From Luteibacter sp. Sphag1AF (GTDB lineage Bacteria > Pseudomonadota > Gammaproteobacteria > Xanthomonadales > Rhodanobacteraceae): DNA of 64,000 nt. Positions 28,992-44,160 of the stretch are shown piece by piece (position 1 is the stretch's first letter; every line of letters begins with the position of its first letter). A program made the position numbers and the translations under genes. The stretch lies in the NCBI RefSeq assembly GCF_014192715.1, contig NZ_JACHYH010000002.1:1-64000 (forward strand), written 5' to 3'. Under the pieces are notes generated by a model. The model had not been told where the DNA came from. It searched no databases and was given only the letters and a program-made list of their open reading frames with translations.

Positions 28992-30902
28992 TCAGTAGTT
29001 GAGTCGCCACGCCAGCAGATGCCAGCCCACCGCGAAACACGACGCCGCCACGCAAGCCAGCAACAGCAGCACGCTCCCCACCTTCCCCGTGAACTGGCCC
29101 GGCATCCGCCAGGCCTGCCAGGCATGCAATGCGGCGGCCAGGGAACCGATCACTGCCAGAAGCGTCAACACCTGTACCGCTCGAATCCATCCGTCAGCGT
29201 GACCGGTGGGCTGCCACATCAGCAACGCCCAACCCGCCGCAGCCAGCAGGAACAGCAGCGCCACCACGCGCGTGGCCGTATACCAGCGCGACGCTACCGT
29301 AACGCCGCCATCAGCCTGTCGGCGGCGGCGCGCGGCCGTGATCGGCCAGAAAACCAGCGCCACCAGGAAGCTGGCCATGATGGCCCCCAGCGCGATCAGC
29401 ATCGCGACGGATTTCGCACCAGACGTGGCGGGCAGAAACACCTCACCGGGCGCCAGTTCGTCAATCGACAGCCAGCGCACCTTGCCGTCAACCACCGAGG
29501 CGGCCAGGTGCGAACCGGTCGCGTCGTCAAGCCACACGAAGGGCCGCACTTCGCGCCAATGGCGCGGCTTGCCTGCGGCGTCGGGGAACATCGGGGTAAT
29601 CAGCGTGCCATCGGCCGCCAGGTCGATGCGGTTCGCCGGGTATTGGGAGCGCGCGGCCAGCCAGCTGGCGCGAGGCTGTCGGCTGGACACCCAGAACCCT
29701 TCGAGAAGACGGCCATGCGGCACAGCCGTGCCCAGCGTCGGTGCCTTCTGTTGAGGCAGCGGGGGGAAGTACCGGTCGGCAAATCCGTCCAGCAGACGCT
29801 GGCGAAGACAGCAACTCGCGCGCCCGCTCACGGCAATGAAGAGGCCGGTATCTTCGGCCGGAAACCATGCCAGCTCGCTTTGCGCGCCAGCCATGTCGCT
29901 GCGCTGCCCCACGATCACCTGGCCGTTGCGATCCATGCGCTGAAGACCGAGCGCCATGGGCGACAGGCCGGGCACCGACACTGAGGCGAACTCGCGCATG
30001 GCCTGCGCGGTGCCGGGGCGAAGAAGGCCCTGGCTGCCGTCCATATGGGCAAGCACGAAACGCCCCATGTCCTCACCGCTGATCGACAGACCGCTGGCGG
30101 GCACGGCCGAGCGCACTTCAAACGAGGTGCCTGCCACGTGGGGCGCAAGCGCGGGCGGCAGGGGTTGCAGGAACGAAGCGTGCTGCATGCCCAGCGGACG
30201 GAAGATGTGTGTGTCCATGTACGCAGCGAAGGCCTGGCCGGAAACGCGCTCCACGATGTAGCCCGCCAACGCCACGCCATAGTCCGATTGCGCCGCGACC
30301 TCTCCCGGCGGATACACCCGCTCGGGCAGCGATGCCTTCACCCACTGCCCGAGCCACGCGGGGTCATTGGTGGATGCATCGGCGGCCGTGCGCACCACGT
30401 CCTTGCTGACGGCATCGAAGCCGGAGGTCTGCGTCAGCAACTGGCGCAGCGTGACCGGCTTGCCGTCGAACGCCGGGATGGAAAAATCCAGATACCCGTT
30501 GATGTCGGCATCCAGATCCAGCCGCCCATCACTCACCAGTTGCATCACGGCGGTGGCAGTGAATGCGGTAGACGTTGTGCCAGCACGAAACATCGTGATG
30601 GCCGGGTCCACAGGCGTCTTGCGTGATGGATCGGCCAGTCCGAAGCCGCGCGCCGAGATCACCTCGCCGTGTCGCACCACCACGATCACCCCGCCATCGG
30701 TGTGGGCGCGGCCGGGATCGCTCGCGATCAGCTCGTCCAGCCATGTGTCCAGATCGGCCTTTGCAAGCACATGCCCGCCCAGTGGCACGGCGACGGCCGC
30801 CTTCTGCTCCGGCAGCGGTCGTATCTGGATCTGCGCCAGCACGGGAACAGCAACACATGCGGCCACACCAGCCAACACTACGCTTAACGCCTGCTTGAGC
30901 AC
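28992..30902 (-). CDS. Serine-hydrolase (beta-lactamase class C-like) homologue with degraded active site and membrane tail
   Basis: A 636-aa exported protein: signal peptide (1-23, ending VPVLA), a class C beta-lactamase/PBP-like domain (about 45-380), a linker beta region and about four transmembrane helices (near 498-520, 545-562, 575-595, 608-628). The fold is clear from TAVMQLVSDGRLDLDADINGYL and LRQLLTQTSGF. All three catalytic motifs are changed: the SxxK site reads T109-T-S-T112, the YxN site reads Q205-S-D207, and the H/K-x-G site reads Q333-R-S. It therefore should not acylate. A GTG start at 30902 has GGAGAG upstream. It could bind a peptidoglycan or lipid-linked ligand as a sensor or regulator; that is inference. 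Confidence 0.8.
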   Translation of the reverse strand: MLKQALSVVLAGVAACVAVPVLAQIQIRPLPEQKAAVAVPLGGHVLAKADLDTWLDELIASDPGRAHTDGGVIVVVRHGEVISARGFGLADPSRKTPVDPAITMFRAGTTSTAFTATAVMQLVSDGRLDLDADINGYLDFSIPAFDGKPVTLRQLLTQTSGFDAVSKDVVRTAADASTNDPAWLGQWVKASLPERVYPPGEVAAQSDYGVALAGYIVERVSGQAFAAYMDTHIFRPLGMQHASFLQPLPPALAPHVAGTSFEVRSAVPASGLSISGEDMGRFVLAHMDGSQGLLRPGTAQAMREFASVSVPGLSPMALGLQRMDRNGQVIVGQRSDMAGAQSELAWFPAEDTGLFIAVSGRASCCLRQRLLDGFADRYFPPLPQQKAPTLGTAVPHGRLLEGFWVSSRQPRASWLAARSQYPANRIDLAADGTLITPMFPDAAGKPRHWREVRPFVWLDDATGSHLAASVVDGKVRWLSIDELAPGEVFLPATSGAKSVAMLIALGAIMASFLVALVFWPITAARRRRQADGGVTVASRWYTATRVVALLFLLAAAGWALLMWQPTGHADGWIRAVQVLTLLAVIGSLAAALHAWQAWRMPGQFTGKVGSVLLLLACVAASCFAVGWHLLAWRLNY

Positions 30903-31077
30903 GGTCTCTCCTTTTCGCCGCAGCGGCGCGGAACGCATCGGGGTCGGAAAGAATGGTGCCATGCCCGTCGCCCTGAAAGGCGTGAAACAGATGAACGGGT
31001 GTGGACCGTGGCAAGGCCATCACATTCTCATCCGCTACCATGCGCGCCCACCACGCTCACTCAAAGGTTCCGCGCTC

Positions 31078-31950: not shown

Positions 31951-32055
31951 GCGACGCGAAATAAATTGCGTGTCGAAGGAAGGCTCTTGATACCTATTGC
32001 GGTGCGGCACGATGGAAGACGAATCGGCGGCACGCCCCAATGCGCCCATGATGCA

Positions 32056-32100
32056 ATGCAGCGAAAGCATCACTTACGGCCAGGCATGAGCAATATGCAT
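32056..32100 (+). promoter_or_regulatory. Pair of LysR-type boxes upstream of the porin gene
   Basis: ATGCAGCGAAAGCAT (32056-32070) is a perfect ATGC-N7-GCAT inverted repeat (T-N11-A type). ATGAGCAATATGCAT (32086-32100) matches it with one base changed. The starts are exactly 30 bp apart, so both lie on one DNA face. The same pair geometry occurs before galD. A further palindrome AAACCC-C-GGGTTT lies at 32106-32118. The stretch 31951-32200 has no gene. Confidence 0.65.
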
Positions 32101-32200
32101 AACTGAAACCCCGGGTTTTCCGTTGTTCCCATCGAGGGCCAACCGCAGCATCCGCTTCCATTGCGCCCATCCGGGGCGGTGTTTGTGGGGTTGCTGTCTG

Positions 32201-33538
32201 ATGATCGTTCGTCGCGTCGCTATGTGTTCGTTTGCGCTGGCCTCCAGCTCGTTTACCCCTGCGGTGCTGGCTCAGTCCACTGCCGACTCGGTTGCATCCA
32301 CCGGGTCCGCGAAAGGCCCCGTAGACAAGTTGCGTGACGAAGGCATCGCACTGCGCTTCGTGCTTTCCAATGACTATGCAGCAAGCGTGCGTGGCGGCGA
32401 ACGCTTGGGCGGAACGAACGGCGGCGGTGCCGTTGGCGGCGCCGATCTGGACATGCAAAAGCTGTTCGGCATCACCGGCGGCAAGATGCACATCACCTTT
32501 TCCCGTTATTACGGCCACAGCGTGGCCGCCGATGATGTGGGTGTGTTGCAGAAAATCCAGGGTTACTGGTACCCGAAGCGTCAGTGGGAACTGGCGCAAC
32601 TGAGCTGGGAACAGCAGTTCGCGCAAAGCCATCTGAACCTGCTGGTGGGACGCATCAACGCAACGTGGCAGTTCGCGCGCTCCACGTATGGCTGCCGCTT
32701 CGTTGCTGCACAGGACTGCCCCTTCCAGCTCACCAACACCACTGGCGGCTTCAGCGGCTTTCCCTATGTGAACTGGGGGGCCCGCCTGAAATACCAGCCT
32801 GACGCGCGCTACATTTCCATCGGTGCGTTTGAGGTCAACCCGGATCGGCGCAACAACAATGGCGTGAACTGGGGTCTGAACAACGCCACGGGCGTGATGA
32901 TTCCGGTGGAAGTCGGTTATGAAACGACATTCGCCTCCGATCCGTATCCGCGCCACCTGAAGATCGGCGGCTGGTACAACTCGGCCGCGTTCACCGATCC
33001 GCGCTTGAATACACGGGGACTTCCGCGCGCACTGGCGGGCGGTACGGCGCGTACGTATGCCGGCGGCCGTTACGGTTTGTATGTGCTGGGCGACAAGGTC
33101 ATCTACAAGCCAGATGCCAACAGCAACACACGCAACGTCGCGATCTTCGGCTCGGTGACCGGCCCGCTCGACAACGCGGAAACCTATTCGATGCAGGCCA
33201 CCGGTGGCGTGATCTGGAACGGCCCCATGGCCAGACGCCCGAATGATTCGCTGGGCTTCCAGGCAACGCTGTTCCGCTTCAGCAAGAAAGAAGTGGGCTA
33301 CGAGAACGACCTGATCGCGAAACAGGGATCAAGCGAGCGCTTCTCGCGCAACGAAACCATGCTGGAACTCAACTACAGCTACAAGCTGTTCCCGGTGGTG
33401 AGCATCGTTCCCAACGTGCAGTACATCATTCATCCGGACATCCTGGGCAACACCGCCGGCATGAACCGCGTACCAGCCAACGCGCTGGTCGTCGGCCTCC
33501 GTGCGATGCTGAACATGGGCGGCCCGGGCAGCCAGTGA
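32201..33538 (+). CDS. OprB-family outer-membrane porin
   Basis: A 445-aa beta-barrel protein. The signal peptide ends at A24 (PAVLA-QS). The sequence has alternating beta strands with aromatic girdles (YWYPKRQWELAQLSWEQQF, WGARLKYQPDARYISIGAFEVNPD, VEVGYETTF) and ends with a strand-like segment. It belongs to the carbohydrate-porin OprB group by pattern (GWYNSA, ARLNTRG), though family members also serve acids. Position before the LysR gene and catabolic operon, and the LysR-type boxes in front of it, suggest it admits the pathway substrate. Exact solute is unknown. Confidence 0.85.
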   Translation: MIVRRVAMCSFALASSSFTPAVLAQSTADSVASTGSAKGPVDKLRDEGIALRFVLSNDYAASVRGGERLGGTNGGGAVGGADLDMQKLFGITGGKMHITFSRYYGHSVAADDVGVLQKIQGYWYPKRQWELAQLSWEQQFAQSHLNLLVGRINATWQFARSTYGCRFVAAQDCPFQLTNTTGGFSGFPYVNWGARLKYQPDARYISIGAFEVNPDRRNNNGVNWGLNNATGVMIPVEVGYETTFASDPYPRHLKIGGWYNSAAFTDPRLNTRGLPRALAGGTARTYAGGRYGLYVLGDKVIYKPDANSNTRNVAIFGSVTGPLDNAETYSMQATGGVIWNGPMARRPNDSLGFQATLFRFSKKEVGYENDLIAKQGSSERFSRNETMLELNYSYKLFPVVSIVPNVQYIIHPDILGNTAGMNRVPANALVVGLRAMLNMGGPGSQ

Positions 33539-33573
33539 CATAATCGACTTTCCCATTCCAACGTGGCCTTCAC

Positions 33574-34500
33574 GTGGACCTGAAACACCTTCAGAGTTTC
33601 ATCCGCATTGTCGAATTCGGCAGCCTCACGCGTGCCGCCGCGACGCTGGATGTATCCCAGTCGCTGCTCAGCCGTCAGGTGCGCCAGCTGGAAATGGAAC
33701 TGGGCACGCATCTGCTGGAACGCAACGGACGCGGCGTCAGCGCCACCGAGGCGGGGCGTCAGCTGGTTGAACATGGCCGCGGCATCCTGCGTCAGGTGGA
33801 AGTGGCCCGGCTTCAGCTGGGCCAGGCACGTGGTGCGCAGGGCGGCAAACTGGCCATCGGGCTTCCGCCCAGCGTGGGTGCGTTGCTGACCGTTGATCTG
33901 GTGATGCGCTTTCGTGAGCGTTATCCGGCAGCGCAAATCAGTGTGGTGGAAGGACTGAGCGCCAGCCTGCTTGAATGGTTGCAACTGGGACGCCTGGACT
34001 GCGCGCTGCTGTACAACCCGCCCGTGAATACCAACATGCGCTATCGCCATGTGCACTCCGAGCCGCTGTATCTCATCGGCAGTCCGCGTTCCGGACGCGA
34101 TCTCCCCGACAGCGTGCCGCTGGCCACGCTGGGCGACTATCCCATCGTGATTCCGTCGCAACTGCATTCGGTGCGTCAACTGATCGAGGCAGACGCCGCG
34201 CGCTATGGCGTTTCCCTCGACATCACGCTGGAAATTGATTCGGTGCGTTCGCTGCTGGATCTGGTGGAACGTGGCGTGGGATACGGCGTGCTTTCGCGCA
34301 ACGCCGTGCTGGCCCGACGCGGTGCGCATGGGTTGCGTGCCGCACCCATCGTGAAGCCGAACATCGTCACGCGCCTGGTGGTTGCCACGCCCACGCAGCG
34401 CCCGGTCAGCACCATCACGGAAAGAACGCTCGAACTGGTGGACGAAGCCATCGCCCGCGGCATTCTGGACCCCACGTTCGGCGCCATACCTGACGCGTGA
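33574..34500 (+). CDS. LysR-family transcriptional regulator of the catabolic cassette
   Basis: A 308-aa regulator with N-terminal winged helix-turn-helix (residues 1-60, FGSLTRAAATLDVSQSLLSRQVRQLE) and an effector-binding periplasmic-protein-like domain. It starts with GTG 35 bp after the porin stop, so it may be cotranscribed, and it precedes the galD operon with 143 bp between. Two pairs of ATGC-N7-GCAT boxes, before the porin and before galD, are its natural targets. The likely effector is a pathway intermediate (PDC or oxalomesaconate). By position it resembles GalR of the Pseudomonas gallate operon, but the identity is inferred. Confidence 0.88.
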   Translation: MDLKHLQSFIRIVEFGSLTRAAATLDVSQSLLSRQVRQLEMELGTHLLERNGRGVSATEAGRQLVEHGRGILRQVEVARLQLGQARGAQGGKLAIGLPPSVGALLTVDLVMRFRERYPAAQISVVEGLSASLLEWLQLGRLDCALLYNPPVNTNMRYRHVHSEPLYLIGSPRSGRDLPDSVPLATLGDYPIVIPSQLHSVRQLIEADAARYGVSLDITLEIDSVRSLLDLVERGVGYGVLSRNAVLARRGAHGLRAAPIVKPNIVTRLVVATPTQRPVSTITERTLELVDEAIARGILDPTFGAIPDA

Positions 34501-34514
34501 GCGCCATTGTTGCG

Positions 34515-34559
34515 ATGCAGCATATGCATGTCTCGCACCACGTCATGCAGATTGCGCAT
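34515..34559 (+). promoter_or_regulatory. Pair of LysR-type boxes upstream of galD
   Basis: ATGCAGCATATGCAT (34515-34529) and ATGCAGATTGCGCAT (34545-34559) are both perfect ATGC-N7-GCAT inverted repeats, with a 30-bp pitch equal to that of the pair before the porin gene. The downstream box ends 84 bp before galD. Confidence 0.7.
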
Positions 34560-34643
34560 AGCAGATAGTTTGGCTATCGCGTTGTTCGACACGTACCGCC
34601 GGAACACCATCGACACGGTCACCCCTCCCCGGATCGTCGCGCG

Positions 34644-35732
34644 ATGGCTTATGAAATTCCCTGCTGGTACATGCGTGGTGGCACATCGAAAGGGCCGTTT
34701 TTTCTGGCCCGCGATCTGCCCTCCGACACGGCGCTTCGCGACGCGGTCATCCTGGCGGCCATGGGTTCACCCGACGCGCGGCAAATCGACGGCCTGGGTG
34801 GCGCGCACCCCCTGACCAGCAAAATCGGCATCCTGTCACTTCCCACAGACGGCGTTGCCGATCTGGATTTCCTGTTTGCACAGGTAGGCATCGCAGAAGG
34901 CACGGTCGATACCACACCCAATTGCGGCAACATGCTGGCCGCCGCGCTGCCTGCTGCACTGGAAGCCGGCCTGCTCCGCGGTGACGAAGGCACGACGACG
35001 CGCCGCGTGCGCACCCTCAATACGGGCGTCATCGCCGAAATCGCCGTTCTCACTCCCGGCGGCACGCCCACGTACGACGGTGTGGCCAATATCGACGGGG
35101 TACCGCATCCCGGGTCACCGATCTCGTGCGGGTTCCTGGATACCGCAGGTTCGCTGACCGGCAGCCTGCTGCCCACGGGCAACACACGCGATGTAATTGA
35201 TGGCGTGCCCGTCACGCTTATCGACAACGGCATGCCCGTGATGCTGATTGCAGCGGCCGACGTTGGCGTGACGGGGTACGAATCCCGCGAGGAACTGGAT
35301 GCCAATACGCCTCTGAAAGCCCGCATCGAATTACTGCGTCTTGCCGCCGGTCCATTGATGAATCTGGGCGATGTGTCGCGCAAGCCGGTACCGAAAGTAA
35401 CACTGGTCGCTGCGCCTCGTGCTGGCGGTGCACTTTGCACGCGCACCTTCATTCCTCACGACTGCCACGCCGCCATCGGCGTACTGGGAGCCGTCACCGT
35501 GGCCACGGCAGCCGTGATGAAAGGCTCCGTGGCGCACGACGTTGCGAAACTCGTCGATGACGTTGACCACGTCCGCACGCTGTCCATCGAACACCCCACG
35601 GGTGAGTTCAGCGTTGAGCTTGCGCTCGACGGCGACCGCGTCGTCCGTGCCGCTCTTTTGCGTACCGCTCGTCTTCTGATGCGCGGCGGCGTGCCTGTTT
35701 CCCCTTCCCTCTGGCGCGGCCCGCGCGCCTGA
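34644..35732 (+). CDS. galD: 4-oxalomesaconate tautomerase
   Basis: PrpF-family isomerase that converts the keto form of 4-oxalomesaconate to the enol form needed by the hydratase. The 362-aa protein starts EIPCWYMRGGTSKGPFF, close to the family motif MRGGTSKG, and has TTPNCGNMLAA (about 92-102) with the catalytic cysteine, plus the symmetric second half (SCGFLDTAG and CHAAIGVLGAV). Some PrpF relatives act on 2-methylaconitate; the neighbours galB, galC and ligI settle the assignment here. First gene of an operon galD-galB-galC-ligI-dctA. Its ribosome site is weak. Confidence 0.88.
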   Translation: MAYEIPCWYMRGGTSKGPFFLARDLPSDTALRDAVILAAMGSPDARQIDGLGGAHPLTSKIGILSLPTDGVADLDFLFAQVGIAEGTVDTTPNCGNMLAAALPAALEAGLLRGDEGTTTRRVRTLNTGVIAEIAVLTPGGTPTYDGVANIDGVPHPGSPISCGFLDTAGSLTGSLLPTGNTRDVIDGVPVTLIDNGMPVMLIAAADVGVTGYESREELDANTPLKARIELLRLAAGPLMNLGDVSRKPVPKVTLVAAPRAGGALCTRTFIPHDCHAAIGVLGAVTVATAAVMKGSVAHDVAKLVDDVDHVRTLSIEHPTGEFSVELALDGDRVVRAALLRTARLLMRGGVPVSPSLWRGPRA

Positions 35733-35757: not shown

Positions 35758-36480
35758 ATGTCCGATCAAAAGACCGCGCTGGTCGTCAGCGCTCACTCCG
35801 CCGACTTTGTCTGGCGCGCTGGCGGAACCATTGCGCTGCATGCCGCCCAGGGATGGAAAGTCCATATCGTCTGCCTGTCGTTCGGCGAGCGCGGCGAGTC
35901 CGCCAAGCTGTGGCGCCAGCCCGGCATGACGCTGGAACGGGTGAAAACGGATCGCCGCCGCGAAGCCGAAGAAGCCGCCGCGATCCTTGGTGCGGAAGTG
36001 TCCTTCCTCGACATCGGCGACTACCCGATGCGGGCGGATCTGGACGTAGTATTCAGGCTGGCAGCGATCTACCGCGAACTTCGTCCGTCGTTCGTGCTCA
36101 GCCATTCACTGAAAGACCCGTACAACTTCGATCACCCGCTTGCCACACACGTGGCGCAGGAAGCGCGCGTGGTGGCGCAGGCACACGGCCACGAGCCGCA
36201 GCAGGCCGTGATCGGCGCACCGCCGGTGTTCCTGTTCGAGCCGCATCAGCCCGAGCAGTGCGAGTGGAAGCCCGAACTCTTCCTGGACATTTCGCCGGTA
36301 TGGGAGAAGAAACGCGCCGCCTTCGAAACGATGCGTGCGCAGGAACACCTGTGGGAGTACTACACCCGCGTCGGCCTCCAGCGCGGTGCGCAGGCCACGC
36401 GCAACTCCGACTTCAAGATCCAGTACGCCGAAGCATTTCAGCGCATCTTCCCCCACGTCACGCAGGACACACTGGCATGA
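35758..36480 (+). CDS. galB: 4-oxalmesaconate hydratase
   Basis: Zinc-dependent hydratase of the PIG-L/LmbE fold that adds water to enol-4-oxalomesaconate, giving 4-carboxy-4-hydroxy-2-oxoadipate. The 240-aa protein has the first metal motif as H13/D16 in VVSAHSADFVWRAGG, and the second around D120 and H126 (SLKDPYNFDHP). The rest (SFGERGESAKLW, FEPHQPEQCEWKP, EHLWEYYTRV) matches Pseudomonas GalB as I remember it. An AAGGAG ribosome site precedes the ATG. Its stop overlaps the galC start (ATGA). Confidence 0.92.
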   Translation: MSDQKTALVVSAHSADFVWRAGGTIALHAAQGWKVHIVCLSFGERGESAKLWRQPGMTLERVKTDRRREAEEAAAILGAEVSFLDIGDYPMRADLDVVFRLAAIYRELRPSFVLSHSLKDPYNFDHPLATHVAQEARVVAQAHGHEPQQAVIGAPPVFLFEPHQPEQCEWKPELFLDISPVWEKKRAAFETMRAQEHLWEYYTRVGLQRGAQATRNSDFKIQYAEAFQRIFPHVTQDTLA

Positions 36481-37178
36481 CCGGCATCGTTGTCCGTCAC
36501 CGTCCCGATGTGGCTGCCGGACAGGCCTCTGCCTTGTCCGCGCTGGGCGTCGCCACGGTACACGAAGCGCAGGGGCGCACCGGATTGCTGCATCCGCATA
36601 TCCGTCCGATCCAGCAGAACGTCGCGGTGGCGGGCGCTGCGGTGACGGTGCTGGCTCAGCCGGGCGACAACTGGATGCTGCATGTCGCGGTCGAGCAATG
36701 TCGTGAAGGCGACATCCTTGTGGTGGCCTGCACCACCGAAAACCTCGACGGCATGTTCGGCGACCTGCTGGCCACCTCGCTCATGGCCCGTGGTGTGCGC
36801 GGCCTGGTGATCGACGCCGGTGTACGCGACACGGCGGAACTGCGCCGCATGGGCTTCCCTGTCTGGTCGCGTGCCGTCAACGCACGCGGCACGGTCAAGG
36901 CCACGCTGGGCTCGGTCAATGTGCCCGTAGTGATCGCCGGCCAGGTGATTCGTCCGGGCGATGCCGTGGTCGCTGACGATGATGGTGTGGTGGTCGTTCC
37001 TCACGAAGACATCGACACCACCATCGACGCCGGCCAAAAGCGCGAAGCCAACGAGACGTCCAAACGCGAACGCCTCGCCGCAGGCGAACTGGGACTGGAC
37101 ATCTACGACATGCGCCCGAAGCTCGAAGCCATGGGCCTGCGCTACATCGACCACCTTTCCGAAGAGAAGAACTCATGA
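36477..37178 (+). CDS. galC: 4-carboxy-4-hydroxy-2-oxoadipate aldolase
   Basis: Class II aldolase of the RraA-like fold; it cleaves 4-carboxy-4-hydroxy-2-oxoadipate to pyruvate and oxaloacetate, the exit of the protocatechuate 4,5- and gallate pathways (LigK/GalC/ProA). The 233-aa protein has the metal and substrate motif GDLLATSLMARGVRGLVIDAG followed by R117-D118. Overlaps of 4 bp with galB before it and with ligI after it (both ATGA) show tight coupling. Products enter the TCA cycle directly. Confidence 0.92.
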   Translation: MTGIVVRHRPDVAAGQASALSALGVATVHEAQGRTGLLHPHIRPIQQNVAVAGAAVTVLAQPGDNWMLHVAVEQCREGDILVVACTTENLDGMFGDLLATSLMARGVRGLVIDAGVRDTAELRRMGFPVWSRAVNARGTVKATLGSVNVPVVIAGQVIRPGDAVVADDDGVVVVPHEDIDTTIDAGQKREANETSKRERLAAGELGLDIYDMRPKLEAMGLRYIDHLSEEKNS

Positions 37179-38044
37179 AGAGCTGCCTTCCTCCCGATCC
37201 GAATCCGACCGCTCCACTGACCGCGCTTCCGGCAAATTCGTGCGATGCCCATTGCCATGTATTTGGCCCCGCCAACGTCTTCCCGTACGCGGATGACCGC
37301 AGCTATACGCCTCCTGATGCGCCCCTGGAACACCTTGTGGCGCTGCACGACTTCCTCGGATTCGACCGTGGCGTGATCGTGCAGGCAAGCTGCCACGGCA
37401 CCGACAACACCGCCATGATGGATGCCATCGCGCGCGGCGCGGGTCGCTATCGCGGCGTGGCCATCGTGGACGATCACATCGACGAGCGGGGCCTGACCGC
37501 CCTGCACGACGGTGGTGTGCGTGGTGTGCGCTTCAACTTCGTCAAGCACCTCGGGGGCGCGCCGGACATGGCGGTGTTCTGGCGTGTACTGGAGCGCGTG
37601 AAAGCGATGGGCTGGCACGTGGTCCTGCATCTGGATGCCGGCGACATCGTGGAACTTCAGCAAGTTCTTTCGCGCATTGAAGTGCCGTTCGTGATTGACC
37701 ACATGGGCCGCGTGCTGGCCTCGCAAGGCGTTGAACAGGAACCGTTCCGCCTGCTCGTGGCCCTGATGCGGGATAATCCGCTCGCGTGGGTCAAGGTATG
37801 CGGCGCTGAACGCGTATCCGTCGGCAAGCGTCCTTTCGACGATGCCATTCCTTTTGCCTCCACGCTTATTGAAGCGGCACCCGACCGGGTGCTGTGGGGC
37901 ACGGACTTCCCCCACCCGAACATCTCCAAAGACATGCCCAACGACGGCGGCCTGGTCGATCTGATGTTCCGTTTCTGCCCCGACGAAGCCTTGCGCCAGC
38001 GCCTGCTCGTCGAGAATCCGGCACGTCTTTACGACTTCGCCTGA
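37175..38044 (+). CDS. ligI: 2-pyrone-4,6-dicarboxylate lactonase
   Basis: Amidohydrolase-superfamily enzyme that opens the lactone of 2-pyrone-4,6-dicarboxylate (PDC) to 4-oxalomesaconate. The 289-aa protein has H26 and H28 (DAHCHVFGP), the arginine segment GVRGVRFNFVKHLGG (near 110-124), VIDHMGR (about 172-178) and the catalytic-aspartate segment GTDFPHPN. These match LigI of Sphingobium; related TIM-barrel amidohydrolases of other substrates exist, but the operon supports PDC. It is coupled by an ATGA overlap to galC and followed 30 bp later by the transporter. Confidence 0.9.
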   Translation: MKSCLPPDPNPTAPLTALPANSCDAHCHVFGPANVFPYADDRSYTPPDAPLEHLVALHDFLGFDRGVIVQASCHGTDNTAMMDAIARGAGRYRGVAIVDDHIDERGLTALHDGGVRGVRFNFVKHLGGAPDMAVFWRVLERVKAMGWHVVLHLDAGDIVELQQVLSRIEVPFVIDHMGRVLASQGVEQEPFRLLVALMRDNPLAWVKVCGAERVSVGKRPFDDAIPFASTLIEAAPDRVLWGTDFPHPNISKDMPNDGGLVDLMFRFCPDEALRQRLLVENPARLYDFA

Positions 38045-38074: not shown

Positions 38075-39376
38075 ATGTCCGATATCGCCACGCCGCAAGT
38101 CACCCCTCCCCCGGTAAAGCCGCGAAAGCCCCTGTACCGGCAGCTGTATATCCAGGTGCTTGTCGCGGTAGTGATCGGCGTGATACTCGGGTATCTGTCG
38201 CCGCATTACGCCGTGGCGATGAAACCGCTGGGCGATGCCTTCATCGCATTGATCAAGATGGTGATCGGCCCGATCATCTTCTGCACCGTGGTGACTGGCA
38301 TCGCCGGCATGCGTGACATGCGCAAGGTCGGGCGCGTGGGCGGCAAGGCGCTGATCTACTTCGAGGTCATCTCCTCGGTGGCCCTGCTGTTCGGACTGGT
38401 GGCAGGACACATCTTCCATCCGGGCAGCGGATTCAACGTGGACAAGACCACGCTCAACCCGGCCGATGTGGCATCCATTGCAGCTCAGGGGCACAACATC
38501 GAGTCGATCGGGTTTGTGCTTTCCATCATCCCCACTACCTTCGTCAATGCGTTTGCACGCGGCGATGTGTTGTCGATCCTGCTGATCTCCGTGCTGTTCG
38601 GCTGCGCGCTGGCATCGGTGGGTGAGCGCGGAAAGCCCGTGTTCGATGTGATCGAGGCCGGCGCACAGGTCTTCTTCAAGATCGTGCACTACATCACGGC
38701 CATCTCGTCCATCGGCGCGTTTGGCGCCATCGCATTCACCATCGGCAGCTATGGCGTGGTTGCCCTGTTGCCGCTGGTGAAGCTGATTTTCAGCTTCTAT
38801 ATGGTGTGCGTCATCTTCGTGCTGCTGATACTCGGGCTCGTGGCGCACCTCACGGGCTTCAGCATTCTTCGCTTCTGTTCGTACATCAAAGACGAGTTGC
38901 TGATCGTACTGGGCACGAGTTCCTCGGAGGTGGTGCTGGCTCCGCTCATGCGCAAACTGGAGGAGCTGGGTTGCCCGAAGTCCACCGTGGGCCTCGTGGT
39001 GCCGACCGGTTATTCATTCAACCTGGATGGCACCAACATCTACCTGACCATGGCCATTCTCTTCATCGCCCAGGCGCTCAACATTGACCTGACGCTGGAG
39101 CAGCAGATCACCGTGGCCATCGTGGGCATGCTCACGTCCAAAGGTGCCAGCGGCGTAGCGGGCGCGGCACTGGTGATGCTGGCCTCCACCCTCAGCGTGG
39201 TGCCGGTCGTGCCGGTGGCGGGCATGGTGCTCATCCTTGGCATTCACCGCTTCCTGGGAACCGGACTTGCCATGACCAACCTGGTCGGCAACGGCGTGGC
39301 CGCCATCGTGGTGTGCGCATGGGAGAAGGAACTGGACCGCGGCAAGCTGGCAAGCACGCTCGACGCCCGCACGTAA
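38075..39376 (+). CDS. DctA-like dicarboxylate:cation symporter with altered binding site
   Basis: A 433-aa inner-membrane protein of the DAACS family with about eight helices and two re-entrant loops: HP1 tip [16 protein letters not shown]7 [18 protein letters not shown]2 [12 protein letters not shown] and TM8 [20 protein letters not shown]. coli DctA has, as I recall, TSSSESALP at HP1 and D..R (LGIDRFMSEARALTN) in TM8. Here the TM8 aspartate is H391 and the substrate-binding arginine is L398, so the ligand is probably not a plain C4-dicarboxylate. Last gene of the galD operon; PDC is the most economical candidate. A terminator follows. Confidence 0.88.
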
Positions 39377-42846: not shown

Positions 42847-44160
42847 ATGACATGGTCCCGCACATCGCTGGTTGCCGCCCTGGCAATCCTTGCCCTGCCC
42901 CACACGGGCATGGCCCAGGAGAAAGCGACGCTTTCTGCCTCGCAGTCCGACCCGCAACGCATGGGATGGATGCAGGGTTCGCCTCCGCCTGACGACAAGA
43001 TCATCCGATTCTCCGACCCGGACTATTTCAGCTTCCCGAAACTGCGCTGGACGGTATGCCATATCCGCCAACTCATGCCCACCATGGGGGTCAGCCGCGG
43101 TTCGGGCGCGCCCGTGATGCTGGAAAGCAGGAACGACCCGGCGATTGACGCGCTCACGTTCACACCGCTCGGCAACTCTGCAAAGATGACGTGGCACGAA
43201 TCGCTTTCTGCCAACTACACCGATGGCATCGTTGTGTTGCACAAGGGCAAGATCGTTTACGAACGCTATTCGGGCTGCCTCAATGACGAAGGGCAGCACA
43301 GTGCCATGTCGGTGACCAAGTCGGTCACCGGCCTGCTCGGCGAAATACTGGTGGCCGAAGGCAAGCTGGACGACACTGCGCGCGTCAAAAGCATTGTGCC
43401 GGAACTTGCCAACAGCGCATTCGGTGATGCCACCGTCCGTCAGGTGCTCGACATGACCACCGGCCTGAAATACAGCGAAGACTATGCTGACCCCGACGCC
43501 GATGTCTGGACGTATTCAGCGGCCGGCAACCCTCTTCCCAAGCCAGCCGATTACACCGGACCACGCACGTATTTCGACTATTTGAAGACGGTCACTAAAG
43601 AAGGCACGCATGGCGCCGCCTTCGGATACAAAACCATCAACAGCGATGCACTTGGCTGGATCATTGCGCGGGTGTCCGGAAAGTCGGTTGCGCAACTGCT
43701 GTCCGAACGCATCTGGAGCAAGATGGGTGCCGAACAGGACGCCTATTACACCGTCGACTCCATCGGCACGCCGTTCGCTGGCGGCGGTCTCAATGCCGGC
43801 CTTCGCGACATGGCACGCCTGGGCCAGCTGATGCTCGGTGGCGGCGTCATCCATGGCCAGCGCCTCTTTCCGCAAAGCGTCGTTGACGACATTCGCCGGG
43901 GTGGCGATAAGGCCGCATTCAAGAAAGCCGGCTATCAGCCCCTGCAAGGCTGGAGCTATCGTGACATGTGGTGGGTGACGCACAACCCGCATGGCGCCTT
44001 CATGGCGCGCGGCGTGTACGGCCAGGCCATCTACGTTGACCCCGCGGCCGATATGGTTATCGCCCGATTCTCATCCCATCCGATCGCCAGCAATTCGGCG
44101 AATGACCCGACCTCGTTGCCCGCATATGACGCCGTGGCAAACTATCTGATGACACGCTGA
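42847..44160 (+). CDS. Exported class C serine hydrolase (6-aminohexanoate-dimer hydrolase/beta-lactamase-like)
   Basis: A 437-aa protein with signal peptide (1-23, HTGMA) and a class C beta-lactamase fold. The catalytic S155-V-T-K158 (HSAMSVTKSVTG) and Y261 (YKTINSDALG) are intact, so unlike the other homologue in this window it should be active. The middle and C-terminal regions (LDMTTGLKYSEDY, RDMARLGQLML, ARGVYGQAIYVDP) resemble the NylB group of amide and ester hydrolases. A GGAGG precedes the ATG. Substrate unknown: esters, small amides or D-amino peptides are all possible. Confidence 0.85.
   Translation: MTWSRTSLVAALAILALPHTGMAQEKATLSASQSDPQRMGWMQGSPPPDDKIIRFSDPDYFSFPKLRWTVCHIRQLMPTMGVSRGSGAPVMLESRNDPAIDALTFTPLGNSAKMTWHESLSANYTDGIVVLHKGKIVYERYSGCLNDEGQHSAMSVTKSVTGLLGEILVAEGKLDDTARVKSIVPELANSAFGDATVRQVLDMTTGLKYSEDYADPDADVWTYSAAGNPLPKPADYTGPRTYFDYLKTVTKEGTHGAAFGYKTINSDALGWIIARVSGKSVAQLLSERIWSKMGAEQDAYYTVDSIGTPFAGGGLNAGLRDMARLGQLMLGGGVIHGQRLFPQSVVDDIRRGGDKAAFKKAGYQPLQGWSYRDMWWVTHNPHGAFMARGVYGQAIYVDPAADMVIARFSSHPIASNSANDPTSLPAYDAVANYLMTR

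Follow-up and report, generated by a model that had tools for sequence, protein, structure and literature searches.

Paired ATGC-N7-GCAT boxes and a predicted LysR regulon for 2-pyrone-4,6-dicarboxylate use in Luteibacter

The window analysed here, i.e. the first 64,000 nucleotides of contig NZ_JACHYH010000002.1 of Luteibacter sp. Sphag1AF, carries a cluster of seven genes, all on one strand, which encode an OprB-family porin, a LysR-type regulator, the enzymes GalD, GalB and GalC, an amidohydrolase and a DctA-type symporter. Pairs of ATGC-N7-GCAT boxes precede the porin gene and galD, and their occurrence in the genus follows that of the LysR gene. The explanation that we favour, with a probability of roughly 0.75, is that the LysR protein, acting through the paired boxes, activates two units devoted to the uptake and breakdown of 2-pyrone-4,6-dicarboxylate (PDC).

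Paired boxes at the porin and galD promoters

A sequence-only reading of the window had pointed to four boxes, and re-reading the sequence confirmed their positions (window coordinates refer to the (+) strand unless otherwise stated). Upstream of the porin gene, box 1 (ATGCAGCGAAAGCAT, 32056–32070) is followed by box 2 (ATGAGCAATATGCAT, 32086–32100), which deviates from ATGC-N7-GCAT by one mismatch; the two boxes upstream of galD (ATGCAGCATATGCAT, 34515–34529, and ATGCAGATTGCGCAT, 34545–34559) are perfect, as is porin box 1. All four display the T-N11-A geometry, the start-to-start pitch is 30 bp in both pairs, and the LysR gene sits between the two pairs, as had been proposed.

A single box is unremarkable: the window contains five perfect copies for 2.5 expected, a number reached in 11 of 100 shuffles, and the whole 4.18-Mb genome contains 85, versus 30 for a reversed control pattern. 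The pair at 30-bp pitch, in contrast, is seldom met: when no more than one mismatch is allowed, it is found twice in the window and in none of 100 shuffles, and in the whole genome it is found at the porin and galD promoters only, so that equal pairs, whose frequent occurrence would have spoken against the sequence-only reading, are not frequent elsewhere. Four more places in the genome display two mismatches and 40 more display three, making a total of 46 versus 12 for the reversed control; within the window, the two pairs retrieved with up to three mismatches are equalled by 16 of 100 shuffles, so that at this threshold the window by itself provides no significant excess.

We compared these promoters with those of the genus, using 23 Luteibacter genomes including that of the window. 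The LysR gene is present in 14 of them, the 13 other proteins being 83–88% identical to that of the window, and is missing from nine, one of which is only 80% complete. The gene order porin-lysR-galD-galB-galC-amidohydrolase-dctA is kept in all 13 fetched loci. When the loci were scanned with the pitch fixed at 30 bp and up to three mismatches allowed to the ATGC-N7-GCAT pair, the pair was found before the porin gene and before galD in all 14 LysR-positive genomes (28/28 promoters), with no mismatch in 11 promoters, one in 10, two in 2 and three in 5 (hence at most one in 21/28). The boxes are thus conserved before orthologous clusters, as the sequence-only reading would have it, and every predicted target is preceded by two T-N11-A dyads at pitch 30, the layout of a paired operator. 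Four additional three-mismatch pairs in the 13 fetched loci (L031:557, L034:11377, L039:15052 and L040:12333) were not counted as operators.

Genus-wide, pairs with at most one mismatch occupy 23 places, 21 of which are porin or galD promoters and two of which lie elsewhere; the reversed control yields three. Such a pair is present at the locus in 14/14 LysR-positive genomes and nowhere in the nine LysR-negative ones (0/9). This tracking supports the earlier proposal that one LysR protein would govern both the porin gene and the catabolic operon, and control of both units through the paired boxes is, in our view, highly probable. Since the pairs with at most one mismatch are found almost only at these places, the regulon, as far as can be read from the genomes, comprises two promoters; in all likelihood, LysR governs porin-lysR and galDBC-amidohydrolase-dctA, with few targets beyond them. 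Three of the four two-mismatch places in the genome of the window, as well as both stray places of the genus, are inside open reading frames of 239–740 aa; this location is weak evidence because antisense or short open reading frames (320, 102 and 139 aa) likewise cover the window pairs.

The 28 promoters were then aligned on their boxes without gaps and the information content was computed for each column. The T and the A of T-N11-A are invariant in 56/56 boxes. Also invariant in all 28 promoters are, around box 1, a TGC ending one base before the box (32052–32054 and 34511–34513 in the window), TGC in the left arm and CA in the right arm, and, around box 2, ATG in the left arm, GCATA at the right arm and a C and a G just 3' of it; CATANCWGA is common to both promoters in 28/28 (block GCATANCWGA at 32097–32106 and 34556–34565). 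Because several galD promoters display TTGC-N7-GCAA as box 1, WTGC-N7-KCAW describes box 1 more closely, and ATGM-N7-GCAT box 2. When the invariant columns were combined into one composite motif and searched with up to three mismatches in the 23 genomes, 33 rows were returned: the 28 promoters, which match without mismatch by construction, four rereadings of these pairs on the other strand and one place elsewhere. The off-register control, i.e. the composite with one extra N, returned four places, none of them at the locus.

Two other explanations of the boxes have to be weighed here. The boxes could be operators of another regulator, for instance of the BoxR/BzdR type: the BoxR motif, described as ATGCACTATAGTGCAT with 6 nt between the TGCA half-sites, often occurs as multiple sites 3–5 helical turns apart (PMC6449761), and its half-sites resemble the window boxes. 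However, it places 8 bases between ATGC and GCAT versus 7 in the window boxes, and both the invariance of T-N11-A and the tracking of the LysR gene by the pair make a BoxR-type owner improbable. Alternatively, one promoter could have been copied from the other, the conservation of the boxes then reflecting ancestry rather than binding. The two promoters do share about 75 bp of conserved sequence in the same register, but the seven-base spacers, the middle 15 bp and the 30 bp upstream have drifted to 0.74, 0.76 and 0.57 bits per column on average, whereas the cores remain at 1.79 (the 45 bp downstream are at 1.03). An ancient copying event would not speak against function, whereas a neutral one is difficult to reconcile with drifted flanks and preserved cores, and we regard it as the least probable of the explanations considered.

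The galD pair stays with galD in all 14 LysR-positive genomes, the distance between lysR and this pair being 14–54 bp in 12/14 genomes; in the two others, an insert of 0.7–0.9 kb without a convincing gene separates them (L030:7712–8585 and L034:8184–8913).

Cluster genes and promoter layout

The first unit is headed by the porin gene (32201–33538; Pfam PF04966, 229 bits). Its start is more likely the ATG at 32201 than the listed TTG at 32123, since the latter falls within a conserved promoter element and the ATG is followed by a signal-peptide-like stretch. The regulator gene (33574–34500) encodes a 308-aa protein with both an N-terminal helix-turn-helix (HTH) domain (PF00126, 71.5 bits) and a C-terminal substrate-binding domain (PF03466, 123 bits), as expected of the LysR type. 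The second unit comprises galD, encoding 4-oxalomesaconate tautomerase (34644–35732; NF033377, 482 bits for a cut-off of 440); a galB-type gene for a PIG-L protein, by homology a 4-oxalomesaconate hydratase (35758–36480), which matches the annotated galB of loci L121 and L122 at 67% and 65%, respectively; galC/ligK, encoding 4-carboxy-4-hydroxy-2-oxoadipate (CHA) aldolase (36477–37178; TIGR02798, 339 bits for a cut-off of 304.5); the amidohydrolase gene (37175–38044), whose product is by homology a LigI-type PDC hydrolase; and dctA, encoding a dicarboxylate symporter (38075–39376; NF002461, 604 bits for a cut-off of 513). A galB search of the genomes of the class (E 1e-60) matched 1/369, namely the genome of the window. 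At some distance, the cluster is flanked by open reading frames at 28992–30962 (−) and 42847–44160, the translations of which resemble, by eye, serine hydrolases with a beta-lactamase fold.

Downstream of box 2, TTGT[TA] occurs at the same register in 28/28 promoters. In the galD promoter of the window, it is part of a conserved block, ATCGCGTTGTTC (34576–34587), in which TTGTTC (34582–34587) is a candidate −35 element, followed by a weak candidate −10 element, CACCAT (34605–34610); in the porin promoter, the putative counterparts are TTGTTC (32123–32128) and CAGCAT (32146–32151), the latter also weak. The block is exact in 18/28 promoters and within one mismatch in 23/28, the window porin promoter being among the poorer copies; there, 32120–32128 retains CCGTTGTTC. 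The block around TTGT[TA] may be a promoter element or a third contact of the regulator. A scan of the promoters with the sigma-70 consensus gave no good match, which is expected if the promoters are activator-dependent. In a weight-matrix scan, TTGTTC with a 17-bp gap to the weak −10 element ranked best, with a mean of 1.9 bits versus 1.4 bits for the second choice. With this candidate, the boxes would fall near −95 and −65; for them to occupy the usual LysR positions, −65 and −35, a poor −10 element at nATCGC would be needed.

The lysR gene starts 35–147 bp 3' of the porin stop codon in 14/14 genomes (35 bp in the window), and a box with 7/8 matches is found in the 160 bp 5' of lysR in one genome only (1/14). 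Being close behind the porin gene and devoid of its own pair, lysR is probably co-transcribed with it and thus part of its own regulon, which would create a positive feedback.

PDC as the likely substrate

The amidohydrolase aligns to the solved structure of LigI (PDB 4d8l) over residues 9–286 of 289 (E 1.7e-72), hence over nearly its full length, and the LigI homologue is found in the same 14/23 genomes as LysR. The LigA domain PF07746, which is typical of the LigA/GalA-type dioxygenases, was found in 0/23 genomes, the type I extradiol family having been left unsearched; the same model detects the domain in 4/4 control records that carry a LigA or gallate dioxygenase annotation. The cluster therefore lacks the LigAB/GalA ring-cleavage dioxygenase that characterizes protocatechuate 4,5-cleavage and gallate clusters. 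Intradiol dioxygenases could also form PDC from gallate; their domain, PF00775, was likewise found in 0/23 genomes, versus 4/14 control genomes. Thus, the cell seems to possess a route down from PDC and no usual route from an aromatic ring to PDC.

An alternative is that the same LysR regulon serves the use of gallate or protocatechuate, via a dioxygenase of an unsearched family, with the LigI-type enzyme mopping up PDC formed as a side product. In Pseudomonas, the galDBC genes form the lower part of the gallate pathway, and GalR is described there as governing galTAP, which includes the porin gene galP, and galBCD (PMC12314914, PMC9942251), and LigB-like proteins (PF02900) are encoded in 23/23 Luteibacter genomes (28 matches). 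However, these genomes include the nine without the cluster, and, of the 28 proteins, the two that were scanned come closest to 4,5-DOPA dioxygenase without reaching its cut-off of 233 bits (154.6 and 175.8 bits). Moreover, PF07746 and PF00775 are missing throughout, with a working positive control for the former, and a family scan of the cluster genes revealed neither a dioxygenase nor an MFS aromatic-acid transporter. We therefore consider an aromatic substrate unlikely, albeit less so than the alternatives concerning the boxes.

PDC is available in nature: it is reported to represent 1–1.7% of the dry matter of strawberry leaves and to be a marker of the Rosoideae (PMC9415522), and Comamonas is described as secreting it (PMC10154247). 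The conjunction of a LigI-type enzyme, the lack of the usual ring-cleavage families among those searched and this natural availability makes PDC the likeliest substrate, and we lean towards PDC as the compound on which the cell would grow. Hence, the part of the sequence-only reading that assigned an outer-membrane entry route and a pathway to the regulon holds as far as gene content is concerned, but the pathway would probably serve the use of PDC and not of gallate. The likeliest effector would be PDC or its product, 4-oxalomesaconate. The protocatechuate operon of Comamonas has a regulator named PmdR. PDC is described as inducing that operon more strongly than protocatechuate does (PMC10510227, with reference to a further paper). 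As for uptake, the top four plasmid records matching the window DctA are also the top four for LigI: in these Paraburkholderia records, the two genes lie side by side. Going by their names, three of these records are closely related, which leaves fewer than four independent cases.

In the mechanism that we infer, one LysR dimer would bind each ATGC-N7-GCAT box and one tetramer each pair, upstream of the porin-lysR unit and upstream of galD-galB-galC-ligI-dctA. With a pathway compound bound, LysR would activate both units and, lysR riding on the porin promoter, would boost its own production. External PDC would cross the outer membrane through the OprB porin and the inner membrane through DctA, whereupon the LigI-type hydrolase would open it and GalD, GalB and GalC would carry the product to pyruvate and oxaloacetate. 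That the whole forms a self-contained PDC-scavenging catabolon, in which LysR senses PDC and, through an operator of its own, jointly induces an outer-membrane porin, a DctA-type importer and a PDC-to-pyruvate pathway, is the likeliest reading of the cluster, although to our mind an evenly balanced proposition. If true, bacteria without the usual ring-cleavage enzymes would live on PDC originating from plant tissue, such as Rosoideae leaves, or leaking from lignin degraders; the regulator would then let the cell live on an acid of plant and lignin origin for which it has no route of synthesis.

The cluster also names a candidate route of PDC uptake; no PDC transporter is mentioned in the titles and abstracts of the open-access literature searched. 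PDC is in demand as a building block for polymers; an importer and a sensor for it would be of use in biosensors, besides explaining a niche for bacteria without ring-cleavage enzymes. With one regulator and two promoters, the predicted regulon is small enough to be tested as a whole.

Relatives of the regulator and known systems

Kinship of the window LysR with GalR was considered and rejected: in an alignment and tree, four GalR-like rows, so named for their position beside galB (Pseudomonas oryzihabitans, Klebsiella, Sodalis and Rhizobium), form a separate clade (100/100). The tree comprises 17 rows, with seven of its 14 inner branches open, and supports only this split; rows L120 and L124 drew a long-branch warning, and the Pigmentiphaga row runs a few codons past the stop. 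In local matches, the window LysR reaches 45–54 bits at best with the GalR-like rows versus 186–234 bits with seven other LysR rows, and it is 19% and 21% identical to two galB-adjacent LysR proteins. The GalR-like rows are about 100 aa longer. By eye, the GalR-type regulators beside galBCD at L118:12951–14162 and L121:4621–5859 seem to hold two tandem LysR-type HTH stretches, the second about 100 residues in, which would account for their length of about 403–412 aa.

Five LysR relatives with 39–44% identity are encoded near amidohydrolase genes on plasmids of Paraburkholderia (two), Acidovorax, Variovorax and Sodalis; the neighbouring amidohydrolases match the window LigI at 46–76% in L110, L114, L115 and L118, L117 being outside the comparison. 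In Paraburkholderia largidicola, the LysR gene is divergent from ligI-dctA-porin, by gene content a putative minimal module of PDC uptake and hydrolysis; in Paraburkholderia caribensis MWAP64 and Acidovorax, it is divergent from operons containing ligAB and a LigI-type gene; in Variovorax, it precedes two amidohydrolase genes, known here by annotation rather than by comparison with LigI; and in Sodalis, the gene of the 40% identical LysR lies one gene beyond pckA-ligI-dctA-oprB, a GalR-type gene preceding galBCD. Sodalis praecaptivus plasmid pHS1 (L118, 5259–16882) thus brings together pckA, a LigI-type hydrolase, DctA, an OprB porin, two LysR proteins and galBCD, and this enterobacterial relative appears to have a distinct PDC cluster; no LigA domain was found on this plasmid, which was searched without the chromosome. 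A perfect palindrome, ATGTGAATTTCACAT, lies between the divergent LysR gene and ligI-dctA-porin of P. largidicola (L110:8868–9000); it occurs between LysR and LigI in two records from Paraburkholderia and, as one site only, is suggestive at most. The closest LysR met outside the genus (46% identity) is that of Pigmentiphaga (L071), the locus of which has no match to the other cluster genes and no amidohydrolase neighbour; the gene table of Sphingobium L120 lists no amidohydrolase beside the LysR relative either.

Several observations weigh against a LysR regulon for PDC use as formulated above. Five of the 28 promoters match the ATGC-N7-GCAT pair only at three mismatches. NCBIfam gives the amidohydrolase only as a 4-sulfomuconolactone hydrolase, below the cut-off (280 of 500 bits). 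In nine plasmid loci of LysR relatives (Paraburkholderia, Sodalis, Acidovorax and Variovorax), no pair was found with up to two mismatches, so that the link between operator and regulator is confined to Luteibacter. Finally, among 18 loci picked by LysR similarity, one pair with three mismatches (L079) and one with two were found, the latter, at 30-bp pitch, directly 5' of a LysR gene from a member of the Rhizobiales (L086:9944–9988); this single case lies in an A+T-rich stretch, and its LysR matches the window LysR over 58 residues only.

Compared to known systems, the predicted regulon resembles in architecture that of GalR in Pseudomonas putida KT2440 and Pseudomonas sp. NGC7, a LysR-type activator encoded next to galBCD that also governs a porin-bearing transport unit; its regulon is likewise described as two operons with two promoters, and 4-oxalomesaconate is reported as its effector (PMC9942251, PMC12314914). 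Unlike the window boxes, the GalR site is given as ATAAANAAANNGNAT (PMC12314914); the gallate dioxygenase GalA and the MFS transporter GalT are without counterpart in the window cluster, the porin of which belongs to the OprB family; and the window LysR is set apart from the galB-adjacent GalR-like proteins, P. putida GalR itself being outside the comparison. LigR of Sphingobium SYK-6 and Novosphingobium aromaticivorans differs by its sites, TT-N-GC-N6-TTAT, and by its neighbours, which include the dioxygenase LigAB1 (PMC12710314), a distinction drawn from sites and neighbours as described in that source rather than from protein comparison. BenM and CatM of Acinetobacter baylyi are, as is predicted for the window regulator, tetrameric LysR proteins acting on several T-N11-A sites arranged in dyads, ATAC-N7-GTAT, with the same 4-7-4 layout (PMC6628147), but their half-sites are ATAC/GTAT instead of ATGC/GCAT; repression through Sites 1 and 3 and activation through Sites 1 and 2 are described for them (PMC6628147), whereas the window boxes are known from sequence alone. 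As for the plasmid-borne relatives of Paraburkholderia, Acidovorax, Variovorax and Sodalis, they group with the window LysR, apart from the GalR-like proteins, and share the nearby amidohydrolase, but the Acidovorax and P. caribensis MWAP64 clusters hold ligAB, and the pair of the window was not found in these loci. Altogether, the mechanism appears to be of a familiar kind, near those of BenM, LigR and GalR, with a half-site of its own, and this member of the kind is apparently undescribed in the open-access literature searched; what looks distinctive is the setting, namely a two-promoter regulon for an apparent PDC-scavenging pathway without ring cleavage.

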